From positions 3,152,001-3,216,000 of the forward strand of contig NZ_JAFBBP010000001.1 in the NCBI RefSeq assembly GCF_016907275.1: DNA of 64,000 nucleotides. Reading direction: 5' to 3'. A program made the translations under genes and the position numbers. The DNA is from Micromonospora luteifusca (GTDB taxonomy: Bacteria; Actinomycetota; Actinomycetes; Mycobacteriales; Micromonosporaceae). Shown in pieces: positions 43,669 to 64,000 of this stretch. Within the stretch, counting starts at the first letter, position 1; every line of letters begins with the position of its first letter. Below the pieces are notes generated by a model. That model searched no databases and was not told the DNA's origin. It was given only the letters and a program-made list of their open reading frames with translations.

Positions 43669-44802
43669 ATGAAGTTCCGAGTGGAGCGCGACGCGCTCGC
43701 CGAGGCTGTGGCGTGGACCGCGAAGAGCCTGCCCAACCGGCCATCCGTTCCGGTGCTCGCCGGGGTGATGCTCCGGGTCACCGACGGCAACCTGCGGGTT
43801 TCCGGGTTCGACTACGAGGTCTCCAGCCAGGTGACCGTTGAGGTGCAGGGTGACGCCGACGGCGCCGCGCTCGTCTCCGGCCGCCTGCTCGCCGAGATCA
43901 CCAAGGCGTTGCCGGCCAAGCCGGTCGACATCGCCGCGGTCGGTGCCCACCTCGAGCTGGTCTGCGGCAGTGCCCGGTTCACCCTGCCCACCATGCCGGT
44001 GGAGGACTACCCCGCGTTGCCGGAGATGCCGCAGAGCGCCGGCACGGTCGACGCGGCCGCGTTCGCCACCGCGGTCTCCCAGGTGGCCATCGCGGCCGGG
44101 CGGGACGAGACGTTGCCGATGATGACCGGCGTCCGCGTCGAGCTCTCCGGCAACACGCTGTCGATGCTCGCCACCGACCGTTACCGGCTGGCGCTGCGCG
44201 AGATCCAGTGGCAGCCGGACGACCCCGAGGTGAGCATCAACGCCCTGGTGCCGGCCCGCACCCTGAACGACACCGCCAAGGCCCTCGGCCCGCTGGGTGG
44301 CGAGGTCACGCTCGCCCTCGCCCAGGGCGCTGCTGGCGAGGGCATGGTCGGCCTGGCCGGCGGCACCCGACGCACCACCAGCCGCCTGCTCGACGGTGCC
44401 AACTACCCGCCGGTGCGTTCGCTCTTCCCGGCCACCCACAACGCCGCTGCCCGGGTGCCGGTGAGCACCCTGATCGAGGTGGTCAAGCGGGTCGCGCTGG
44501 TCGCCGAGCGGGCCACTCCGGTGCTGCTCAGCTTCAGCGCCGACGGCCTGGTGGTCGAGGCCGGCGGTTCCGAGGAGGCGCGGGCCAGCGAGGCGATGGA
44601 GGCCACCTTCACCGGCGATGCGCTGACCATCGGGTTCAACCCGCAGTACCTCATCGACGGCCTGGCCAACCTGGGGTCCCAGACCGCCGTGCTCTCGTTC
44701 GTCGACGCCTTCAAGCCCGCGGTGATCTCTCCCGCCGGCGAGGATGGCGAGGTCATTCCGGGGTACCGGTACCTCATCATGCCGATCCGCGTTTCCCGCT
44801 GA
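43669..44802 (+). CDS. dnaN: DNA polymerase III sliding clamp (beta subunit)
   Basis: This 377-residue protein has the three-fold clamp layout. Recognisable blocks are MKFRVERDALAEAVAWTAKS, the second-domain VDAAAFATAVSQVAIAAGRD, LSMLATDRYRLALREI and the C-terminal PGYRYLIMPIRVSR, which closes the hydrophobic partner-binding cleft. ATG 43669 follows GCGGAGG at a suitable distance; the frame open upstream to 43417 runs into oriC and is not coding. It is followed after 40 bp by gnd. Confidence 0.97.
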   Translation: MKFRVERDALAEAVAWTAKSLPNRPSVPVLAGVMLRVTDGNLRVSGFDYEVSSQVTVEVQGDADGAALVSGRLLAEITKALPAKPVDIAAVGAHLELVCGSARFTLPTMPVEDYPALPEMPQSAGTVDAAAFATAVSQVAIAAGRDETLPMMTGVRVELSGNTLSMLATDRYRLALREIQWQPDDPEVSINALVPARTLNDTAKALGPLGGEVTLALAQGAAGEGMVGLAGGTRRTTSRLLDGANYPPVRSLFPATHNAAARVPVSTLIEVVKRVALVAERATPVLLSFSADGLVVEAGGSEEARASEAMEATFTGDALTIGFNPQYLIDGLANLGSQTAVLSFVDAFKPAVISPAGEDGEVIPGYRYLIMPIRVSR

Positions 44803-55302: not shown

Positions 55303-55343
55303 CTTCCGGCCGGCGACGAGCGATCGACGCCACGGCCACCCGC

Positions 55344-55419
55344 GGGGCCCTAGCTCAACTGGCAGAGCACTGCCTTTGCAAGGCAGGGGTTAGGGGTTCG
55401 AGTCCCCTGGGCTCCACCA
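55344..55419 (+). tRNA. tRNA-Ala (TGC), integration site
   Basis: Acceptor GGGGCCC/GGGCTCC, D-arm GCTCAACTGGCAGAGC, anticodon loop TTTGCAA (TGC) and T-arm GGGTTCGAGTCCC are all present, and CCA is encoded at 55417-55419. The 3' part, from the anticodon loop onward, is duplicated at 58288, marking it as the attachment site of integrative elements. Confidence 0.97.
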
Positions 55420-55427
55420 GCACTTTC
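55374..55427. repeat. attachment-site direct repeat, copy 1 (in tRNA-Ala)
   Basis: 54 bp, from the anticodon arm of tRNA-Ala to 8 bp past its CCA end, are repeated without mismatch at 58288-58341. Homology continues imperfectly for about 110 bp after each copy, through an integrase 3' end. This is the pattern of a tRNA-integrating element. Confidence 0.92.
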
Positions 55428-55474
55428 CTCGGATGATCTCGGTCCGAGTACAGCCATCCGTACAGCCAAGCCGG

Positions 55475-55534
55475 TCACGCCGTCTCCTCCTGGCCGAGAA
55501 TCCGGTCAATGGCCGAGGCAGCCTGACGAGCCCG
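55475..55534 (-). pseudogene. Tyrosine integrase remnant 1 (C-terminal tail only)
   Basis: On the minus strand about 19 residues, RARQAASAIDRILGQEETA, end in TGA 48 bp from the attachment repeat. The same tail (RVRQAASAIDRVLGEEGTV) ends the integrase remnant next to the second attachment copy. The catalytic domain is gone; sequence upstream is replaced by an unrelated PP2C-like fragment on the other strand. Confidence 0.75.
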
Positions 55535-55539
55535 CGCCG

Positions 55540-55925
55540 GAGCACGATCAAGCCCGACGCGAGTACATCGAAACTCTGCGTGCCCACCGCAACCAGCCCG
55601 GCGGCTTCTGGGTAGCCGCGGGCGACGCTCAGGCAGCATCCGAAGCCCTCATCGGAAGCCGACCAATCCAGGGCCTCACCAGCGCCGTCCTGCTCAGTGA
55701 TGGGGCAAGCCGCATCGCGGATCGCTTCGCACTCGCGGACTGGCCGGAAGTTCTCGCCCTCGTCACTAAGTCGGGACCAGCCGAAGTCATCAGGCAAGTC
55801 CGAGCAGCGGAAGGCAGCGATCCGCAGGTAGGAAGTGGCCGCGTGGCAAGACCCACGACGACGCCACCCTGACCTACTGCACTCAGCTTGGCGAGCCGGT
55901 TTGTCTAGTCCCACCACATGCTTGA
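55540..55925 (+). pseudogene. Frameshifted C-terminal fragment of a PP2C-like protein
   Basis: Frame 1 reads REYIETLRAHRNQPGGFWVA, then TSAVLLSDGASRIADRFALA and AEVIRQVRAAEGSDP. The continuation RKWPRGKTHDDATLTYC is found only after a +1 shift near 55830. The pattern GGFWVAA, LLSDGASR and HDDAT matches the C-terminal part of protein phosphatase 2C-like proteins of actinobacteria. The N-terminal half is absent, cut off at the integrase remnant. The last codons run into a 19-bp repeat at 55884. Confidence 0.65.
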
Positions 55926-56441
55926 CAGATCTGTCCCAGCACATGCTTGCCAGATGGCCTAGTGCCGGCCGGCAGAATCTTCGCGGTCAGTCTCCGTTGA
56001 ACAGGAGCTGTCGGTGGTGGGGGCGTCGAGGCGCGATCTCTAGGAGCGATGCGAGCTGAAGTATCGCCTGGCCGGCTGCTCGCACTCTGTCATCCTTGGA
56101 TCGCTCGATGATCGACTGAAGTTCGATTGCCAGCCTGGCCGTCTGGCGGCTGTTGAACCAGGTGTTGTCGTAGGGATCGACTCCGGAGAGCAACGGGTAA
56201 CGGGACGGCTCCGATGCAGCCAAGGAGCAGAGAGACTCGATGCTCGCGTCCGTAAGTTGCTCTACGACGACACCGGTGTACTCCCAGACCTCCACACTCA
56301 TTCCCACGGCCTCATTGTGCCGGACCGGGTGATCGCCGGGTGAGCCTGGTCCTCGCCGAAAGCGCCCCGATCATGTCAAGCATCTGGTGGGACGCCAGTG
56401 TCAAGCATGTCCCGTGACGGGACAGCTTGGCGAGCCGGTTT
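55884..56441. mobile_element. Small cassette bounded by 19-bp direct repeats, possible IS or MITE derivative
   Basis: CAGCTTGGCGAGCCGGTTT occurs at 55884-55902 and again at 56423-56441. Just inside the left copy is a 25-bp tandem motif (GTCCCACCACATGCTTGACA and GTCCCAGCACATGCTTGCCA, starting at 55908 and 55933). Just inside the right copy the same motif appears inverted (GTCCCACCAGATGCTTGACA read on the minus strand, about 56374-56393). The unit carries one small gene and no transposase. Confidence 0.6.
55987..56301 (-). CDS. Small protein of unknown function carried in the cassette
   Basis: The 104-residue soluble product from ATG 56301 starts MSVEVWEYTGVVVEQLTDAS and contains LLSGVDPYDNTWFNSRQTAR and a helical IIERSKDDRVRAAGQAILQL. 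GAGGCCGTGGGA upstream can serve as ribosome-binding site. I recall similar short proteins in streptomycetes but know no function. It is the only gene within the repeat-bounded cassette, and its codon use is less GC-biased than that of the flanking genes. Confidence 0.65.
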   Translation of the reverse strand: MSVEVWEYTGVVVEQLTDASIESLCSLAASEPSRYPLLSGVDPYDNTWFNSRQTARLAIELQSIIERSKDDRVRAAGQAILQLASLLEIAPRRPHHRQLLFNGD

Positions 56442-56807
56442 CACTGCCGAATTGACCTCTTAAGAATCAAGGCGGCCCGCAAGCGGGCCGCGCCGGCCCG
56501 GCCCCGGCCTGCTGGCGACCTCCGGCCGGCATCGGCCGGGCCGGCCGGCCACGCTGAGGGACGACCAGGATCTAGAAGACCTCGGGGCTCCGCCCCGAAC
56601 CCCGACGCTCCTCAGAGATGCCGCCGCAGATCTCCTCGCCGGGCACCACAAGGGCTACCGGCCTCCCCGGACGGGGACAAGGTGGAGCGCCCTACCGGAC
56701 GAACGACCTTGGCCCCGTCCGGGGAGGCCGGAAGATCGGAGACTGCCCGACGAGGAGATCCGCTCTATCGCTCGCCGTTGGTGTTACTGCCAGAACCAGC
56801 GCGGCCC
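56442..56807. other. Non-coding repeat-rich stretch in the element
   Basis: No gene is supported here. It holds the 85-bp repeat at 56466-56550 (second copy at 58700-58785) and a GGGGCTCCGCCCCGAACC hairpin-like unit at 56584-56601, repeated at 60088-60105 with shared CCTCAGAGAT about 10 bp later. Confidence 0.6.
56466..56550. repeat. 85-bp GC-rich repeat, copy 1
   Basis: It aligns along its length with 58700-58785 at roughly 90% identity by eye. It includes the hairpin GGCCCGCAAGCGGGCC and the shared block GGCCTGCTGGCGACCTCCGG. Confidence 0.8.
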
Positions 56808-57491
56808 TTAGTCAGCTGCCGGATCTGGTGCGTCGGTGCATCTGTCGACAGGTTCCACCGATGAAAGAGCCTTCCTGTCGAAGCGAACTCGCCAGGTGGT
56901 CCCGTCCTTGGCGGACAGCGCGATCTCGTCGTTGTCAACGAAGCTGGCCCGGCCGAAGAGCCATTCCGGGCCGGCGCCAGAGCTTTCCTCAATGAAGCAG
57001 GCCAGACTCTCGCTACCCTCGCGGCTGGCAATGCCCTCCCGGCTTTGCAGCCTCAGCAATACGCTACCGGAGCTGAAGAAGCCGGGAGATCGATACGACA
57101 CGAGCCTGAAATCGGGAGACGCTGCCACGACGGCCTCCCTGGACGCCTCGAACCGGGGACCGAGGGAATCGAGCAGACCGAGAAGCAGGGCTGCGACACC
57201 TACGACCGCCGCGACTGCCTGTGAGGCGACACGTGAAACGCGGTGCCTAACAGCGAGGTGAGCGGCTGCCGCACCTAGGCCGGCGGCGAGCGCGATACCC
57301 AGAAGCGGATGGGCCAATGGCCGCAGGTAGATGTGCCCCCCTCGCTTGGGGCTCATGCATAGCAGCCCATCTCCCTCGCACCAGGCCAGCCCTCCGACCC
57401 CGTCGACGTTCGCGAGGACCGTCACAGCAACTGCCATTGAAGCGACAGCCAGAAGTCCTACTGCGAGCCAACGGCGAAGGGTCAGTTTCAC
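56808..57491 (-). CDS. Membrane protein of unknown function
   Basis: From GTG 57491 the 227-residue product starts MKLTLRRWLAVGLLAVASMA, with hydrophobic helices at about 8-28, 58-78 and 88-108 and a C-terminal soluble domain containing FGRASFVDNDEIALSAKDGT and WRVRFDRKALSSVEPVDRC. A CEGDGLLC loop follows the first helix. I do not recognise the family. It lies inside the tRNA-Ala scar region, so it may be element cargo. A longer frame to 57779 is possible but unlikely. Confidence 0.65.
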   Translation of the reverse strand: MKLTLRRWLAVGLLAVASMAVAVTVLANVDGVGGLAWCEGDGLLCMSPKRGGHIYLRPLAHPLLGIALAAGLGAAAAHLAVRHRVSRVASQAVAAVVGVAALLLGLLDSLGPRFEASREAVVAASPDFRLVSYRSPGFFSSGSVLLRLQSREGIASREGSESLACFIEESSGAGPEWLFGRASFVDNDEIALSAKDGTTWRVRFDRKALSSVEPVDRCTDAPDPAAD

Positions 57492-57713
57492 GGCCGGCAG
57501 TATGCCAGGGGGGGGCGCTGCCCATGGTTGCCCGTAGGCCGCCGTGCCATCCACGTGCCAGTAGCCGGTACCCGGCACGGTCACCCGGGGGCACGAACGG
57601 TCACACGTCTCTTGCCTTGATCTGGCCCACCAGGTCCTCGCTGGCGATGATCTTCGTCCTTCCAAACTGACGGTGCGGTAATTGCCGTCGACACCCACCA
57701 GCTTTCGACCATC

Positions 57714-58286
57714 ATGTTGACCATGGAAGAGCCCTTCGTGCTGCGACCGCTCGAAACGAGTTGCAGTTGGGTACTGCACCCTCCAACCGACCCGTACGGC
57801 GACGGCTACATCTGGGCTGTGCGGTCAGAGATCTCTGACGAGGGCATGACGGCGGAGACGAGCGCCACGATGGCGGGTCGCTGGGCGCCCGAGAACGAGT
57901 CTCTTGGGTGGTTCTTTCAGTCTCTGGCAGACGACTGGCGGGGATGGGAAGGCGGACGAGAGTGGCGTTCGCTTGAAGGTGAGATGGAGATCGATGCGCA
58001 CCACGACGGGCGAGGCCACGTAGCCGTCGGCGTGACGTTGAGGCGTGCCCGGCAGGCGTATGCCGACGATGCTTGGTCGGCTCGGATGGTCTTCATGGTG
58101 GAGGCCGGCGAGGAGATGACCAGACTGGCGGCCGACCTCCGTGATTTCCTAGGCCGAAAGGCCCTATCCGGCTGTCCAGCCATCCGTACAGCCAAGCCCG
58201 CCGACAGACACGGTCCGGCGTCGACGGTAGGCGACCCGGCGAGCAGGTCAGCGGCAGTGACCGACGCCGACCGACAGGAGTCTTGA
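57714..58286 (+). CDS. DUF6228-like protein, C-terminus altered at element end
   Basis: The 190-residue product begins MEEPFVLRPLETSCSWVLHP (second ATG, 57723). It contains FFQSLADDWRGWEGGREWRS, DAHHDGRGHVAVGVTLRRAR and FMVEAGEEMTRLAADLRDFL, which resemble DUF6228 proteins as I remember them. The natural end should be near residue 147. The frame then reads on for about 43 residues through sequence that also occurs near the first attachment site, and stops 2 bp before the second attachment repeat. Confidence 0.55.
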   Translation: MLTMEEPFVLRPLETSCSWVLHPPTDPYGDGYIWAVRSEISDEGMTAETSATMAGRWAPENESLGWFFQSLADDWRGWEGGREWRSLEGEMEIDAHHDGRGHVAVGVTLRRARQAYADDAWSARMVFMVEAGEEMTRLAADLRDFLGRKALSGCPAIRTAKPADRHGPASTVGDPASRSAAVTDADRQES

Positions 58287-58287
58287 T

Positions 58288-58341
58288 CTTTGCAAGGCAG
58301 GGGTTAGGGGTTCGAGTCCCCTGGGCTCCACCAGCACTTTC
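58288..58341. repeat. attachment-site direct repeat, copy 2
   Basis: Identical to 55374-55427 over 54 bp. It contains only the 3' part of tRNA-Ala from the anticodon loop on, with no 5' half before it, so it is not a functional tRNA gene. It marks the far end of the inner element and the near end of a second one. Confidence 0.92.
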
Positions 58342-58376
58342 ACCGGTTGATCTCGGTCCCGAGTACAGCCAAGCAG

Positions 58377-58705
58377 TCACACCGTCCCCTCCTCGCCCAA
58401 CACGCGATCAATGGCCGAGGCAGCCTGACGAACCCGCGCCAGGACGAGCAGCGGCTCCAACCGGTCCCCGGCCCAACCCGACAGAAGCGTCTTGCATTCC
58501 TCAGGAGTCAGAGCACGCCGCTCGGCCCGACTGAGGGCCGGAGGCTTGGCTGCCTTGGCCGCGTTGCGTGGCACCAGGTCCATCCGCTCAGCGTCGGCCA
58601 GGGCGACGCGCAGCACGGCGTGCACCTTGATGATGCTGGCCGGTGCGAGCCTGCCCCGCAGCCCGGAAGGAACCGCTGCACGTCACGAGGCGTCAGCCGA
58701 TCAAA
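58377..58705 (-). pseudogene. Tyrosine integrase remnant 2 (frameshift and internal deletion)
   Basis: Read on the minus strand, FDRLTPRDVQRFL begins a core-binding domain. A frame change follows, and the next segment reads GLRGRLAPASIIKVHAVLRV, then ALADAERMDLVPRNAAKAAK and LTPEECKTLLSGWAGDRLEP. The sequence then jumps directly to the C-terminal tail RVRQAASAIDRVLGEEGTV. The catalytic R-H-R-Y region is missing. The layout is that of a tRNA-site tyrosine recombinase whose end lies 35 bp from the attachment repeat. Confidence 0.85.
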
Positions 58706-58785
58706 GCGGCTCGCAAAGCGGGCCGCGCCGGCCTGGCCTCGGCCTGCTGGCGACCTCCGGCCGGCTACGGCCGGGCAGACCGGCC
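58700..58785. repeat. 85-bp GC-rich repeat, copy 2
   Basis: Counterpart of 56466-56550. It begins inside the 5' end of integrase remnant 2 and ends just before the epoxide hydrolase gene. Confidence 0.8.
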
Positions 58786-58820
58786 GTAGCGATGGATCGC
58801 CCTTGGTGGCGTTGGCCGCG

Positions 58821-60032
58821 TCAGTTGGTGGCCTCGCGGAGTTTCCGGAAGAACGCCCTCATGTCCTCGACCAGGAGCTCCGGTTCCTCCATTGCCGCGA
58901 AGTGCCCGCCCCGGTCGTACTCCGTCCACTGCACGATGTGGTTCGTGCGGTCCGCAATGTGTCGTAGGGGAATGAAGTTGTCCTGCGGGAAGACGGCCAG
59001 CGCGGTTGGTGCCGTCGACGGTTCGGGGGGCTTGCCCCAGTGGTCGGCGTGCGCGCGTTCGTAGTAGATGCGGGCGGACGAGCCGGCCGTGCCGGTCAGC
59101 CAGTAGAGCATCACGTTTGTGAGCATCTGGTCGCGATCGACCGCGTCCTCGGGGCGGTCCTCGGAGTCCGTCCACTCCTTGAACTTTTCGACGATCCAGG
59201 CCAGTTGGCCAACCGGCGAGTCGGTCAAGCCGTACGCCAGCGTCTGTGGCCGTGTGGCCTGGATGTCGGCGTATCCCTGACGCTCGCGGGTCCAGGCCTT
59301 GATGCGTTCCCAGGAGGCCAACGTGCGCTCGCGCTCGTTCGGGCTCATAGCCTCCAACTCGTGCCGGTCGGGCTCTTGGGCCTGGAATGAGTTGGGCAGC
59401 AGGTTGAGATGCACGCCGATGACCTGGTCGGTTCGGGTGCGGCCGAGTTCTCGGGAGATGATTGATCCCCAGTCACCGCCCTGCACCCCATACCGCTCGT
59501 AGCCAAGACGTTCCATCAGCACGGCGAACGCAGCGGCCACCCGCTTGAACTCCCAGCCTGTCTGCGTCGTCGGCCCGGACAGGCCGAATCCCGGGATGCT
59601 CGGGAGCACCAGGTGAAACGCGTCGGCGGGGTCGCCGCCGTGCGCACGGGGGTCAGTGAGCAGGCCGACGACTCCGGCGAACTCGACAATCGATCCCGGC
59701 CAGCCGTGCGTCATGAGCAGTGGAGTCGCGTCCGGTTCGGGCGACCGGAGGTGGGCGAAGTGAATGTTCGCACCGTCGATCGTGGTGACGAACTGCGGCC
59801 ATTGGTTCAGCTTGGCCTCTGCGGCCCGCCAGTCATACCCGTGGCGCCAGTAATGCACGAGCTCCCTGAGGTAGTCCAGCGGGACGCCGTACGCCCAACC
59901 CACACCCGGCAGTTCGTCGGGCCAGCGCGTGCGGTCGAGACGTTCGTGCAGATCGTCCAGATCGCTTTGGGGCATGTCGATACGGAATGGATAGATGCCC
60001 TCGTCGGCGGTCCCCTTGGTCACTCCGCGCAT
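58821..60032 (-). CDS. Epoxide hydrolase family alpha/beta hydrolase
   Basis: The 403-residue protein has the N-terminal epoxide hydrolase domain ([40 protein letters not shown]) and an alpha/beta-hydrolase core with the oxyanion motif [11 protein letters not shown], the nucleophile Asp in [15 protein letters not shown], and the catalytic His in [20 protein letters not shown]. Such enzymes open epoxides to diols; the natural substrate is unknown. ATG 60032 or a GTG nine bases later may be the start. It lies between element-type repeats and could be cargo. Confidence 0.88.
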
Positions 60033-60087
60033 GTTACGTCCAGGCACCCACAACCACGAGTTCGTTACGGGTACCCAGCCAACCGAA

Positions 60088-60124
60088 GGGGCTCCGCCCC
60101 GAACCTCGGCCTTCCCTCAGAGAT
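60088..60124. repeat. Element-associated repeat, copy 2
   Basis: GGGGCTCCGCCCCGAACC at 60088-60105 and CCTCAGAGAT at 60115-60124 match 56584-56601 and 56610-56619. It may mark the outer limit of the second decayed element. Confidence 0.6.
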
Positions 60125-60256
60125 CCGCGACGGACGTGCCGCCCAACCGGACGTGCGAGTCGGGCATCCACCCGGCCCCCAGGCTATTGATGGGGTCGCC
60201 AGATATTGTCGGCGGCTGCGGGGTGGCGGCTGCGTCGATCGTTTGGGCAAGGGCCG

Positions 60257-60637
60257 TCAGAGTGGGTCGAGGCGGCGCTTGAGCAGGCAGAACTCGTTGC
60301 CTTCTGGATCGGCGAGGACGTGCCAGGACGCATCCGCAGGCTGACCGATGTCGACGAGTTTGGCCCCGGCGGCCAGGAGGCGCTCGAGCTCGGCGTCCTG
60401 ATCGCGGTCGGTGGGGTTGACGTCGATGTGCAGGCGGGCATGCCCGTTCTTCGGCTCGTCGTTGCGAATGAGGAAGATCGTTGGCTGCGGGCCGCCGAAC
60501 CCTTCGCGCGGGCCTATCTCGATGTAGACCCCTTCTTCGCGATCGAGCTCTATGAAGTCCAGGACCTCGCACCAGAACCGCGCCAGCACCTCGAGGTCGC
60601 GGCACTTGAGCACGAGCTCACTGATACGGCATGCCAT
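60257..60637 (-). CDS. VOC family (glyoxalase-like) protein
   Basis: The 126-residue protein begins MACRISELVLKCRDLEVLAR and has the paired beta-alpha-beta-beta-beta units of the vicinal oxygen chelate fold: FWCEVLDFIELDREEGVYIE, then ARLHIDVNPTDRDQDAELER and the ending HVLADPEGNEFCLLKRR. The His in the second unit and the Glu in GNEFC are the usual metal-binding positions. The function is not predictable; such proteins often act as dioxygenases or in drug and toxin resistance. Confidence 0.88.
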   Translation of the reverse strand: MACRISELVLKCRDLEVLARFWCEVLDFIELDREEGVYIEIGPREGFGGPQPTIFLIRNDEPKNGHARLHIDVNPTDRDQDAELERLLAAGAKLVDIGQPADASWHVLADPEGNEFCLLKRRLDPL

Positions 60638-60880
60638 TGACGAAACCTACTCTCAGCATGGGAACTCTCGGGGCGGCCGCACGCGGACCTCATGGGCTCC
60701 CTGCAGTGCGAACAAGCTCGCGACCATACCGGGCGAGGCGAGCGGGGCTGGACGAGGGTGCCCGTCGGGCTGAGCCCTGACGGCCGTCAGTCGGCAGGAA
60801 GTCAGCGAGACGCGCGACAACAGCCGTCAACCGTTGGTACGAGACAGCAAAGTCCCGGACGACAACACCAGAAGGGCGGC

Positions 60881-61669
60881 TCACCGCTGCCAGTTGTAGG
60901 GCGTCGTCGTCGACACCTTGATCAGGCCGTAGCGCTCAAGGATCGGGCGCGAGTACTCGGTCGAGTCGCTGTTGATGAGTGTCTTGCCCATACGGAGTGC
61001 TGAGCGGGCCCGCGCCGCGGTCAACGCGCGGTAGATCCCACGGCCGCGCCACTCCGCAAGGGTCGCGCCACCCCAGATCCCGGCGAAGTCGGTCCCGGGC
61101 ACGGGCTCCAGCCGGCCGGCACTGACGATCCGTCCCCCCGCCTCTGCAACCCACAACTCCATTCCGTCATCGCGGGCCAGGCGGCGCAGGAGGGCATTCG
61201 CCATGTCATCGCTTACCGGGTTCTCAAAGGCTTCGTCTTGCATCGCACTCATCGCGCGAACGTCCGCCTCCTCGCTGACCCGACGCAGTGTCACGCCTTC
61301 GGGCAGCGGAACGTCAACGGCTAGCAGCCGCGCCTCGCCAATCATGATCGACTCAGGCTCATCCGCAGTGAACCCATTCTCTAGCAACGCCTCGTGCAAC
61401 CCCGGCGCATGGTCGTGCCCACGCGCCTTCCACTTGACCCGCTCGATCTCGGGGTCTGCCTGATAGTGAGCGAGCGTCTCTGGGACGAGCCGACGAATCG
61501 TATCGGCGTCCGCCCCGCCGAGATCGCGGTACGTGACAAAACCACGACCACCCGCGAAGGTCACGAGACGCAGTGGCCCGTGTCGGGTGACTGAGACCGC
61601 GCTCGGCGTCTCGGCGTCAGTTCGAAGCTGTTCGTCGTAGGCCGCAAGCAGTCCAACCGAATTGATCAT
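60881..61669 (-). CDS. GNAT family N-acetyltransferase
   Basis: From ATG 61669 the product is 262 residues. The C-terminal GNAT domain (about 130-262) has GMELWVAEAGGRIVSAGRLE, the acetyl-CoA loop LAEWRGRGIYRALTAARARS and the ending SRPILERYGLIKVSTTTPYN. The N-terminal half (LVTFAGGRGFVTYRDLGGAD) may be a degenerate second domain. The substrate is unknown. The longer frame to 61765 lacks support. Confidence 0.85.
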   Translation of the reverse strand: MINSVGLLAAYDEQLRTDAETPSAVSVTRHGPLRLVTFAGGRGFVTYRDLGGADADTIRRLVPETLAHYQADPEIERVKWKARGHDHAPGLHEALLENGFTADEPESIMIGEARLLAVDVPLPEGVTLRRVSEEADVRAMSAMQDEAFENPVSDDMANALLRRLARDDGMELWVAEAGGRIVSAGRLEPVPGTDFAGIWGGATLAEWRGRGIYRALTAARARSALRMGKTLINSDSTEYSRPILERYGLIKVSTTTPYNWQR

Positions 61670-61774
61670 GTCCGTACGCTGTAACAACGGGTCCGGAGAA
61701 GCAACTGGTTTCGAGCCACCCCCACGCTGGAGCCCGGTCTTCCCCGCCCTGCCGCGTCCGGCCAAGGTGTGTGT

Positions 61775-62083
61775 ATGGACGAACAGTCAGCACCCGTCAC
61801 CATGCACATCTACTGCCGGGTTGAGGTGCTCGTCACCGACCCGGCGGCGGTCACCGGTCACGCGGTCGCCGACCTACGTGCGGCCGACATCGACTGGTCC
61901 ACCGAGGAAGACGACCTGGAGACGGCGGTAGAGGAGCTTCGCTCGGACCTCGCCACCTCTCTGGCGAACATGGTGGACATCAGCCAACTTGCCGACGATG
62001 TTCCGGGGGTGGAGTTCCGTGGCGGCCTCTGTTGGGCCGAACAGGGACCGGCTCGGGACCCTTTCCGCTCCGACGAGCCGTGA
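61775..62083 (+). CDS. Acidic small protein of unknown function
   Basis: The 102-residue product starts MDEQSAPVTMHIYCRVEVLV and is strongly acidic in its middle (DIDWSTEEDDLETAVEELRS). No membrane segment and no recognised domain are visible. It is upstream of and co-oriented with the CBS-domain gene, 81 bp away. An ATG two codons upstream (61769) is an alternative start. Confidence 0.65.
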   Translation: MDEQSAPVTMHIYCRVEVLVTDPAAVTGHAVADLRAADIDWSTEEDDLETAVEELRSDLATSLANMVDISQLADDVPGVEFRGGLCWAEQGPARDPFRSDEP

Positions 62084-62164
62084 CGACACGGCGGGCGGCA
62101 TGGCAGGAGCCGACCGGGGTAGGAGAAACGGCAACAACCCCCCGGGAAGTGAGGTGTCTTACCA

Positions 62165-62584
62165 ATGCCTACGGCACGCGAGATCATGACGAACGACGTG
62201 ACCTGTGTCCGCGAGCAGGACGACCTGAAGTCGGCCGCGAAGCGGATGGCGGAGCTGGGGGTCGGCGCCCTGCCGATCTGTGGCGACGACAACCGGCTCA
62301 AGGGCATGCTGACCGACCGCGACATCGTGGTGAAGGTGCTGGCCGAGGGCCGTGACCCGGCCAACGTGACCGCTGGTGAGCTGGCCCAGGGCGAGGCGGT
62401 GACCATCGGCGCGGACGACGAGGCGGCCGAGATCCTGCGCACCATGGGCCAGCACAAGGTACGCCGACTGCCGGTGATCGATGGCCACGAGCTGGTGGGC
62501 ATCGTGGCCGTCGCCGACGTGGCCCGGTCCCTGCCGGAACGCCCCGTGGGCGACCTCATCGAGGCCATCTCCGAGCGCAGCTGA
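62165..62584 (+). CDS. CBS domain pair protein
   Basis: The 139-residue protein consists of two CBS domains: MTNDVTCVREQDDLKSAAKR with MLTDRDIVVKVLAEGRDP, then GEAVTIGADDEAAEILRTMG with RRLPVIDGHELVGIVAVADV. Such stand-alone pairs bind adenine nucleotides and are often stress-induced in actinobacteria. ATG 62165 is preceded by GGGAAGTGAGG. A stable hairpin follows. Confidence 0.9.
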   Translation: MPTAREIMTNDVTCVREQDDLKSAAKRMAELGVGALPICGDDNRLKGMLTDRDIVVKVLAEGRDPANVTAGELAQGEAVTIGADDEAAEILRTMGQHKVRRLPVIDGHELVGIVAVADVARSLPERPVGDLIEAISERS

Positions 62585-62606
62585 CCGACCGTCGTACCTG
62601 TCAATG

Positions 62607-62639
62607 ATCGCCGCCGCCGGTTCGCCGGTCGGCGGCGAT
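62607..62639 (+). terminator. Hairpin terminator between the CBS and MBL-fold genes
   Basis: ATCGCCGCCGCCGG (62607-62620) pairs with CCGGTCGGCGGCGAT (62625-62639) around a TTCG loop with one bulged base. It lies between convergent genes and is probably bidirectional. Confidence 0.75.
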
Positions 62640-62694
62640 TCGCGTAGTCCGGCGACCTGTGCCGGCAGTTCGGCTGCCGGGACTGGCAGTGCGG

Positions 62695-63495
62695 TCAGGC
62701 GGGCGGAGTGAGCGGGACGGTCTCACCGCGCGCGATGGTGCGGACCTGTTGGACCCAGCCACGGCGGCGGGCCTCGTCGACGAAGTGCGCCAGTGGGGAG
62801 CGGAAGACCGGGTAGTCGTCGTAGTGGATCGGGACGGTCAGCTGCGGACGGATCAGCTCCACCAGGTCCGCACCCTGGTGGGCGTCCATGGTGAGCAGGA
62901 TCCCGGCGACCTTCGTGCCGCCGAGGTGGATCAGCATCGCGTCGATGTCCGGGTAGCGTTCGGGGATGGCGGTGAGCAGCGGCCGGTTGAGGGTGTCACC
63001 GGTGACGTAGAGGCGGAACTCCCGCCGCCCGGAGCGCTCCACGTCGATCATCGTGCCCATCACGTCGGGCATCAGCCGGTCCAGCGCGCCCGGGCCGTGC
63101 TGGCCGGGCATCGAGGTCAGACGCAGGGTCGTACCGTCGCGGTGCAGCTCCCGGGACGACCAGGTCGGCAGGCCCTGGGCGGCCCGGAAGCCCCAGCGAG
63201 TCAGCTTTCGTTCCGCTGCGGGGGTGGTGACGATGGGCAGCTCGCGGTCCAGTTCCCGGCGGGCCACCCGGTCGAAGTGGTCGCCGTGCAGGTGGGAGAG
63301 GACCACCGCGTCCAGCTCTGGGAGCTGGGCGATCCGCAGCGCCGGGTCCGTGCGTCGGCGCGACCACAACCCCTTGCCGAGGTACGCCCGCTGACCCCGG
63401 TGCAGGAAGTTGGGGTCGGTCAGCAGGGTGAAGCCGCCGATCCGCAGCACCGTCGTCGCGGTACCAATGAACGTCACCTGCGGTTGCTCCGCCAT
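62695..63495 (-). CDS. MBL-fold metallohydrolase (UlaG-like)
   Basis: The 266-residue protein starts MAEQPQVTFIGTATTVLRIG and contains the metal-binding motif LSHLHGDHFDRVARRELDRE, LYVTGDTLN, and HLGGTKVAGILLTMDAHQGA with a later VPIHYDDYPVF histidine. This is the zinc-dependent beta-lactamase fold of the UlaG/RomA-like group. The substrate is unknown. ATG 63495 follows GGAGGTGGG; a GTG at 63504 is less likely. Confidence 0.88.
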   Translation of the reverse strand: MAEQPQVTFIGTATTVLRIGGFTLLTDPNFLHRGQRAYLGKGLWSRRRTDPALRIAQLPELDAVVLSHLHGDHFDRVARRELDRELPIVTTPAAERKLTRWGFRAAQGLPTWSSRELHRDGTTLRLTSMPGQHGPGALDRLMPDVMGTMIDVERSGRREFRLYVTGDTLNRPLLTAIPERYPDIDAMLIHLGGTKVAGILLTMDAHQGADLVELIRPQLTVPIHYDDYPVFRSPLAHFVDEARRRGWVQQVRTIARGETVPLTPPA

Positions 63496-63546
63496 CGTGC
63501 CCACCTCCTCCGGCTCCGGTACCCCGGTGAGGCGTCGGCATGCGGG

Positions 63547-64000
63547 TCAGCCCTCGGCGACCGCACCCGTGGAGTTGGGCGGACGGGCCTCCGGGAGATG
63601 TTCCATCAGCTTGGTCAGCGCTCCGTTGGCGAAGGTGGCGCCGAGCGCCGACCCGGCCCCGATGGTCCAGCCGACCGGCCCGAGCGGGGTGCAGCCGAAG
63701 AACTGGCTCACGCCCGGCGTCTGCACCACCACGACGAGCACGCCCAGTGACGCCGCCGTGGAGGCCAGCACGGCCGGGCTGGTGCCACCGGCCAGGATGG
63801 TCTGCCCGAGTTGGGTGCCGACCAGGGAGACCAGAGCGACCGTTCCGGCCCGCTGGCGACGTCCGGTGTACCGGGCCAACGTCCAGCCCGCGGTCGCGCC
63901 CAGCGTGGTGGCTGCCGCCCGCAGCCCGATCTCCCGGGTGAGGCTCTCGCCGAGCGCCGTGTCCGGGCCCTCGCGGAGCAGCGCGTCGGTGCGGTCGGAC
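63547..64000 (-). CDS. C-terminal part of a cation-transporting P-type ATPase, partial
   Basis: The frame is open to the right edge of the window, so only about 150 C-terminal residues are seen. They read LLREGPDTALGESLTREIGL near the edge, then GWTLARYTGRRQRAGTVALV, TQLGQTILAGGTSPAVLAST and QFFGCTPLGPVGWTIGAGSA, ending TGAVAEG. The paired C-terminal membrane helices match the end of large actinobacterial P-type ATPases (CtpI-like), as far as I can judge from memory. The catalytic DKTGT motif lies outside the window. Confidence 0.7.
   Translation of the reverse strand, partial: SDRTDALLREGPDTALGESLTREIGLRAAATTLGATAGWTLARYTGRRQRAGTVALVSLVGTQLGQTILAGGTSPAVLASTAASLGVLVVVVQTPGVSQFFGCTPLGPVGWTIGAGSALGATFANGALTKLMEHLPEARPPNSTGAVAEG

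Follow-up and report, generated by a model that had tools for sequence, protein, structure and literature searches.

The DNA analysed here (the window) is a 64,000-nt stretch of Micromonospora luteifusca, positions 3,152,001 to 3,216,000 of contig NZ_JAFBBP010000001.1. It carries a tRNA-Ala(TGC) gene at 55344-55419 on the + strand, and the segment from this gene to 61.77 kb is very probably an accretion array of decayed integrative elements. Arms of one kind (type I) follow both copies of a tRNA-derived repeat and an arm of another kind (type II) lies further on, which indicates a minimum of three elements drawn from two integrase families. A first-pass annotation, made from the sequence alone, had proposed two related, decayed elements in series at this tRNA gene. 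Serial integration of related elements holds; the count of two does not, as the third element belongs to another integrase family.

The tRNA-Ala repeat

A 54-bp segment is repeated exactly, in direct orientation, at 55374-55427 and 58288-58341. The spacing is 2914 bp, and the match reaches 72 nt at 96% identity when extended. These coordinates, already given in the first-pass annotation, were borne out. At up to three mismatches, the core occurs at two places in the 7.16-Mb genome and a reversed control at none; the repeat is not due to chance. ARAGORN finds one tRNA-Ala and one tRNA-Ile in the window, and copy 2 is thus a 3' fragment of the tRNA. Copy 1 is attL of a first element, A, and copy 2 is the junction between A and a second element, B. 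Each copy is followed by an integrase C-terminal tail in the same orientation, as had been claimed. The type I left-arm profile matches at 55420-55540 (E 2e-36) and 58334-58442 (E 1.1e-25), and its next best match in the 64 kb is at 58174 (E 0.0095). The site lies ~12 kb from oriC, also in line with the first-pass annotation, as judged from a DnaA motif (42002) and a DnaA box (43040), which stand in for a mapped origin.

The site across the genus

The core was found at up to three mismatches in 159 of 160 genomes of the genus. The survey covers 147 tRNA sites, the window among them and some truncated at contig ends (12 genomes were unfetched and one lacks the core at this threshold), and six second loci, a part of all remote cores. 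Loci are designated L and genomes G. A type I left arm stands at the tRNA in 53 of the 147 sites (E <1e-5), and a second core lies within the fetched stretch in 21 (up to six mismatches). Any element arm is present in that stretch in 71, and at least two elements, counted by arms, in 13.

Intact elements with the same core, which the first-pass annotation had suggested seeking, exist. In L003 (G123), two core copies 13,575 bp apart enclose a 13.6-kb element that encodes an integrase (PF00589), an HTH_17 xis-like protein (PF12728), RepSA (PF20199, E 2e-99), an FtsK/SpoIIIE protein (PF01580), DarT, DarG, and GntR and HAD proteins. Its RepSA falls below the stricter NCBIfam RepSA model (24.8 bits vs a cut-off of 700). 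Gene content, with int, xis, RepSA, and FtsK-type Tra between two tRNA-derived cores, identifies it as a predicted actinomycete integrative and conjugative element (AICE). An integrase open reading frame (ORF) of at least 380 aa, matches to L003 rep and tra, a right arm, and a second core occur together at four of the 147 sites (L003, L105, L125, L155). An exact insertion is seen when L031 is compared with L062, the two being 97.2% identical in 1.8 kb of upstream sequence and 93.7% identical in the 3.16 kb that start at the distal core.

Three integrase families (I, II, and III) are found at the same core. Between families, full-length members share 24-30% identity, with values up to 40% in short partial alignments, and one representative of each family matches PF00589. 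Family I comprises eight ORFs of 382-383 aa plus truncated ones. Type II arms are accompanied by a 427-aa integrase in three loci (L076, L079, L157) and by truncated forms of it in two (L124, L158); no ORF of this kind was found in L095, L096, L107, L131, or L154 despite type II arms. The right-arm profiles, built from 17 type I and nine type II arms, separate the two kinds. A family III element (L083) matches the L003 rep (29%) and tra (34%) proteins. The type II elements of L076 and L157 encode an AAA_25 protein and, close to their right ends, a long ORF on the + strand (that of L076 without a Pfam match); L157 also has a sigma-70-like protein. These two elements contain no match to L003 RepSA and so may be another element class.

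Cores with right arms that lack the 5' half of the tRNA are also found, either on a different contig from the tRNA or at a distance from it (L154, L136, L131, L127, L118; in G276 and G260 the contig is the same and the distance is megabases), suggesting rearrangement or secondary integration. The sole RepSA-family match in the genome of the window, at C1:2482305-2483843, lies within a 606-aa open frame and possibly marks a complete AICE elsewhere.

Element A and its parent

Window positions 55343-55540 match the left end of the L003 element at 93.5%, and 58170-58352 match its right end, including the core, at 84.8%. Together with the repeat, these matches define 55374-58287 as a two-ended remnant, element A. 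The left arm (55420-55540, + strand) includes the last ~20 codons of an integrase gene on the - strand and is 97.5% identical to L070 and 96.7% to L030. The right arm (58172-58285, +) matches its profile, whose 17 rows include the window, at E 1.6e-29. Both arms are full-length, at profile positions 1-121 and 1-114.

The element in L130 is a near-identical parent of A. Its colinear blocks match A at 55374-55540 (94.0%), 55537-55902 (98.4%), 56423-56766 (92.7%), and 58174-58333 (87.0%). In L130, ~6.3 kb separate the first two blocks, which abut in A at a common CCGG. A thus looks like the product of a single microhomology deletion of ~6.3 kb that ran from the integrase body to the transfer genes. 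The L130 integrase is itself not intact (longest ORF, 336 aa). The second block is a fragment of a PP2C-like AICE gene on the + strand, corresponding to relative positions 6495-6861 of L130, where the gene matches PF13672 (E 1.5e-5). Its 98.4% identity over 366 bp, vs 92.6% between the two genomes over the 2 kb upstream of the tRNA, points to recent horizontal transfer, although one short stretch is thin evidence.

The remnant PP2C-like gene is broken by a net insertion of 539 bp (55884-56441) with an exact 19-bp target duplication (55884-55902 and 56423-56441). The inserted sequence, 55903-56422, has imperfect 51-nt terminal inverted repeats and holds a 106-aa ORF (55987-56307, - strand) without a family match. 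Short stretches similar to the insertion ends occur elsewhere in the genome. Beyond it are a GC-rich hairpin block common to type I elements (56423-56766, +) and two cargo ORFs. The first (56808-57779, -) has the look of a membrane protein by eye and no Pfam match. The second (57714-58286, +) is a DUF6228 protein (PF19739, E 5e-30) whose C-terminal extension is right-arm sequence.

The mobility machinery of the array appears lost. No tyrosine integrase persists as a gene; ~20 codons are left in A, residues 204-363 are missing in B, and none was seen in a third element, C. A tblastn search with L003 proteins gave no significant match to RepSA or an FtsK-type translocase in 55.3-60.7 kb. A retains two exact cores, B one, and C none.

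An element with attL and attR and no mobility genes is a cis-mobilizable element (CIME). A has this anatomy, with attL and attR flanks and no integrase or transfer genes, and its movement is predicted at most. It could be a mini-element that is not dead and is mobilized in cis or trans, with an outside type I integrase moving the cargo. This is rather unlikely. The full-length arms and exact cores would suit it, as would the sizes of the 15 type I units with both arms and both cores. Ten of these units are 1.1-3.7 kb (window, L029, L030, L031, L070, L093, L107, L116, L120, L158), five are 9.8-13.6 kb (L003, L105, L125, L130, L155), and none lies between. These sizes are biased, however, since counting needs both ends, and 13 further loci have a type I right arm, often partial, without a recognisable core after it. 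The genome has no family I integrase gene besides the relic in B, other matches being 30-40% identical, and no excised form was seen. Cis-mobilization is described in PMC9513070, and defective AICEs (DAICEs) are defined there as keeping traB. No tra match was obtained with L003 proteins in the window elements, which places them outside the DAICE class.

Elements B and C and the distal border

The left arm of B, with its integrase tail, lies on the + strand at 58334-58442 and is 91.6% identical to L135. In the integrase relic (58377-58708, -), tblastn places residues ~113-203, with a frameshift, next to residues 364-381; the catalytic part is missing. The hairpin block of B is in two parts, at 58699-58788 (+, E 1.1e-18) and 60088-60128 (+, a weak match of 86% over 41 bp, E 3e-4). 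Between them is an epoxide hydrolase-like cargo gene (58821-60053, -; PF06441, E 7e-43).

Both copies of the repeat mark type I left ends that point the same way, as they would if unequal crossing-over had duplicated the end of one element in tandem without independent arrivals. Such a duplication is highly improbable and was rejected. The A and B arms are closer to other strains (L070 and L135, respectively, at the identities given above) than to each other (85% over the 65-nt integrase tail). In addition, copy 2 is preceded by a type I right arm and followed by a type II arm.

Element C is represented by its end (60155-60871, +), which is 91.0% identical to L095 and 96.7% to L154; in both of those copies the core lies 41 bp further on. 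It contains a VOC/glyoxalase-like gene (60257-60637, -; PF18029, E 2e-22) and a type II right arm (60788-60871, +). This arm matches at E 1.5e-17 a profile built without the window, is truncated at profile position 85 of 123, and has lost its core; the profile has no second match in the window at E values of 10 or less. The VOC gene had been taken for the chromosomal border. That assignment was rejected because the gene precedes a type II right arm and core in L095 and L154, and by position it is cargo of type II elements.

An accessory GNAT gene follows (60881-61681, -), so classed for its rarity in the genus. Matches of at least 83% identity occur in seven of the 160 genomes including its own (in G224 over 125 residues only), and in the other six they lie on a contig other than that of the tRNA site. 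The other fetched loci have no match to it at the tRNA-Ala site. From 61771 to 64000, the window contains a conserved chromosomal flank (the 61769 ORF, CBS, MBL-fold, and the C-terminus of a cation ATPase), recognized by Pfam and by blastn to L030, L057, L080, and others. Sequence from ~61771 onward aligns with many loci, among them L057, in which only 109 bp separate it from the tRNA gene start. On these alignments the variable zone ends near 61.77 kb, ~6.3 kb from tRNA-Ala.

The first-pass annotation expected an empty site to join the tRNA end to sequence near 60.2 kb. This join was rejected, as L057 joins the tRNA to window position 61772 and the accessory GNAT gene lies beyond 60.2 kb. In L159, the distance from the tRNA start to VOC-block sequence is 138 bp, which on its face fits a join at 60.2 kb. 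L159 is read as an element remnant because its 12-nt flank is similar to the one in L106, a locus with a type II integrase.

Near-empty sites are found in L057, L025, and L089. From the tRNA start to the ATPase match, the closest fetched relatives (L025, L089) measure 0.5 and 0.85 kb, vs 8.2 kb in the window. A set of stable chromosomal genes beside a chance or paralogous tRNA repeat has a negligible probability and is refuted by these short intervals and by the absence of the GNAT gene from this site in every other fetched locus; nothing beyond the conserved flanks favors it. A stable gene order in relatives was the finding that the first-pass annotation had named as telling against its proposal; instead, the interval varies among relatives.

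Assembly of the array

A type I element would be a pSAM2-like AICE with its own integrase, a RepSA-type initiator, and an FtsK-type translocase. Its attP, bearing the 3' part of tRNA-Ala, would recombine with the tRNA gene, and the displaced old 3' part would end up at the far end as the second core. The 3' part of the present tRNA-Ala gene probably derives from an element. Insertions would have been repeated, by type I elements and by one of an unrelated integrase family (type II). A is probably an L130-like AICE that lost ~6.3 kb but retains both ends and cargo; of B, the left end and a gutted integrase survive, and of C only the right arm and VOC cargo. The core that stayed intact is the one next to the tRNA, and C and B therefore presumably arrived earlier than A.

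Strong arm-profile matches in the window are confined to the zone from tRNA-Ala to 61.77 kb. Several points weigh against an accretion array. No rep or tra is left in the window, so the AICE origin of A, B, and C rests on relatives, and none of the relatives of C was shown to be conjugative. The B/C junction (~60.13-60.155 kb) is placed indirectly, and the second block part of B is the weak 41-bp match. The type I right-arm profile (R1) includes window sequence and has a stray match at 43915 (E 0.73). L025 and L089 have also lost chromosomal genes, and the fetched loci include no perfect empty site of the same lineage.

The hairpin block and cargo

The 327-bp hairpin block is present in 18 of the 153 loci, including the window, and 16 of the 18 have type I arms by profiles (all except L068 and L141). 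Its best match is always in one orientation. In the window, 56440-56770 has a z of -8.4. The plasmid collection contained no match to the block, and Rfam gave only miRNA-family matches below their thresholds, taken as chance. By analogy with rolling-circle elements, it can be guessed to be a candidate single-strand origin or transfer site. The hairpin head (56626-56763) is inverted in the window relative to the eight other copies in an alignment, as judged by eye, as if flipped through its own palindrome. A second copy in the same genome (C1:5795271-5795574, 77%) has integrase-like fragments ~16 and 34 kb away.

Cargo may be exchanged between the hairpin block and the right arm. About 40 cargo proteins, most of them near right arms and chosen with a simple codon-composition gene finder, were scanned. 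They include DarTG, an RmrT-like gene with an HTH/M78 partner, SUFU, SUKH-6, SUKH-4, DUF1963, DUF3800, DUF7677, and DUF4259. Also found were GNAT, HNH, SDR, HAD, cytosine methylases, a beta-lactamase-family (PF00144) protein, signal-peptidase-like, PNPOx, a transposase, and several proteins without a match. The SUKH and SUFU proteins are presumably of immunity type, judging in part from their Pfam names. PADLOC matched three of 10 proteins (DarG, DarT, RmrT) and none of three window proteins. In L155 (12540-14370), where the type I element is complete, an HTH/M78 protein stands beside an RmrT-like protein (PADLOC E 2.8e-60), and the pair adjoins the element's right end.

Encoded CCA at the tRNA-Ala end

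The tRNA-Ala gene of the window encodes CCA, as site comparison shows. Positions 74-76 are CCA in 115 of the 147 sites and one of nine other triplets in 32. The same positions of the tRNA-Ile just upstream are CCG in 137, CCA in three, and CTT in one, with six not found. Where a type I left arm is present, CCA is encoded at 52 of 53 sites, vs 63 of 94 without one (Fisher p 2e-6). GCAC, the first bases of type I left ends, directly follows the tRNA at 67 of the 147 sites, and 66 of these encode CCA. On a tree of the 1.8-kb upstream flank (143 taxa, four sites dropped for short upstream sequence), the CCA state requires 27 parsimony changes; shuffled labels give a mean of 29.1 and a minimum of 24. 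In 26 edge-disjoint CCA-discordant pairs, GCAC occurs only in the CCA member in 16 and only in the other in none.

In L062, the tRNA ends in CTC and has no element arm. In L031, which has a 3.7-kb type I remnant, the tRNA ends in CCA and the displaced copy in CTC. The tRNA also ends in CCA in L125, which has a complete element, and in L105; the distal copies of these two loci end in CGC and CCG, respectively. In L079, which has a type II element, the tRNA ends in CTT and the distal copy in CCA; a type I end starts from that copy. Both core copies of the window end in CCA. The triplets of L031/L062, L125, L105, and L079 indicate that integration can rewrite the end of the tRNA gene, in both directions.

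It is tentatively proposed, at somewhat less than even probability, that type I elements give an encoded CCA to a tRNA-Ala gene without one and that type II elements can remove it (one case, L079). The footprint could outlast the element. Several observations count against this proposal. The Fisher value ignores relatedness, the parsimony count may be inflated by recombination or tree error, and 10 of the 26 contrasts are tied. In L070, both copies lack CCA despite a type I left end. Of the 115 CCA sites, 46 show no type I left arm and no GCAC footprint at the tRNA. Type I elements are thus not the sole source; at those sites CCA has other sources or is older.

Encoded CCA bears on tRNA 3' processing. 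Archaeal RNase Z and CCA-containing precursors are the subject of PMC7479834. A search of the open-licence literature, with older pSAM2 and SLP1 work outside its scope, found no report of elements donating an encoded CCA. This rewriting of a tRNA end is less expected than accretion and deserves a second look.

Relation to known systems and significance

Accretion and decay of AICEs are already known in kind, and this Micromonospora site adds a case. Both have been published for tRNA-Arg in a Streptomyces population (PMC9513070). Several AICE families with different integrases are stacked there, with defective and remnant elements and direct repeats between them. The present site differs in genus and in tRNA, and the window has lost all rep and tra genes. 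Integrase identity between families is 24-30% here vs 39-88% in that array. Tandem AICEs in series at one tRNA are also known as the pairs Sav3708/Sav3728, of two integrase subfamilies, and Fean5518/Fean5534 (PMC3218068); these are described as AICEs, whereas the window contains relics. The L003 element resembles pACPL of Actinoplanes, which is 13.6 kb with int, xis, and repSA beside the att site and FtsK-type tra (PMC3364876). The same source also covers pMR2 of Micromonospora rosaria; the likeness drawn here, between pACPL and L003, is one of size and gene layout.

The site is a genus-wide record of conjugative elements stacking, shedding their machinery, and leaving cargo beside a tRNA gene ~12 kb from oriC. 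Near-sister strains with and without an encoded CCA in the same tRNA gene form a natural comparison, in which it can be tested directly how an integrating element affects tRNA maturation. If the encoded CCA alters the route of 3' maturation, these elements would re-engineer a host tRNA gene at each insertion.

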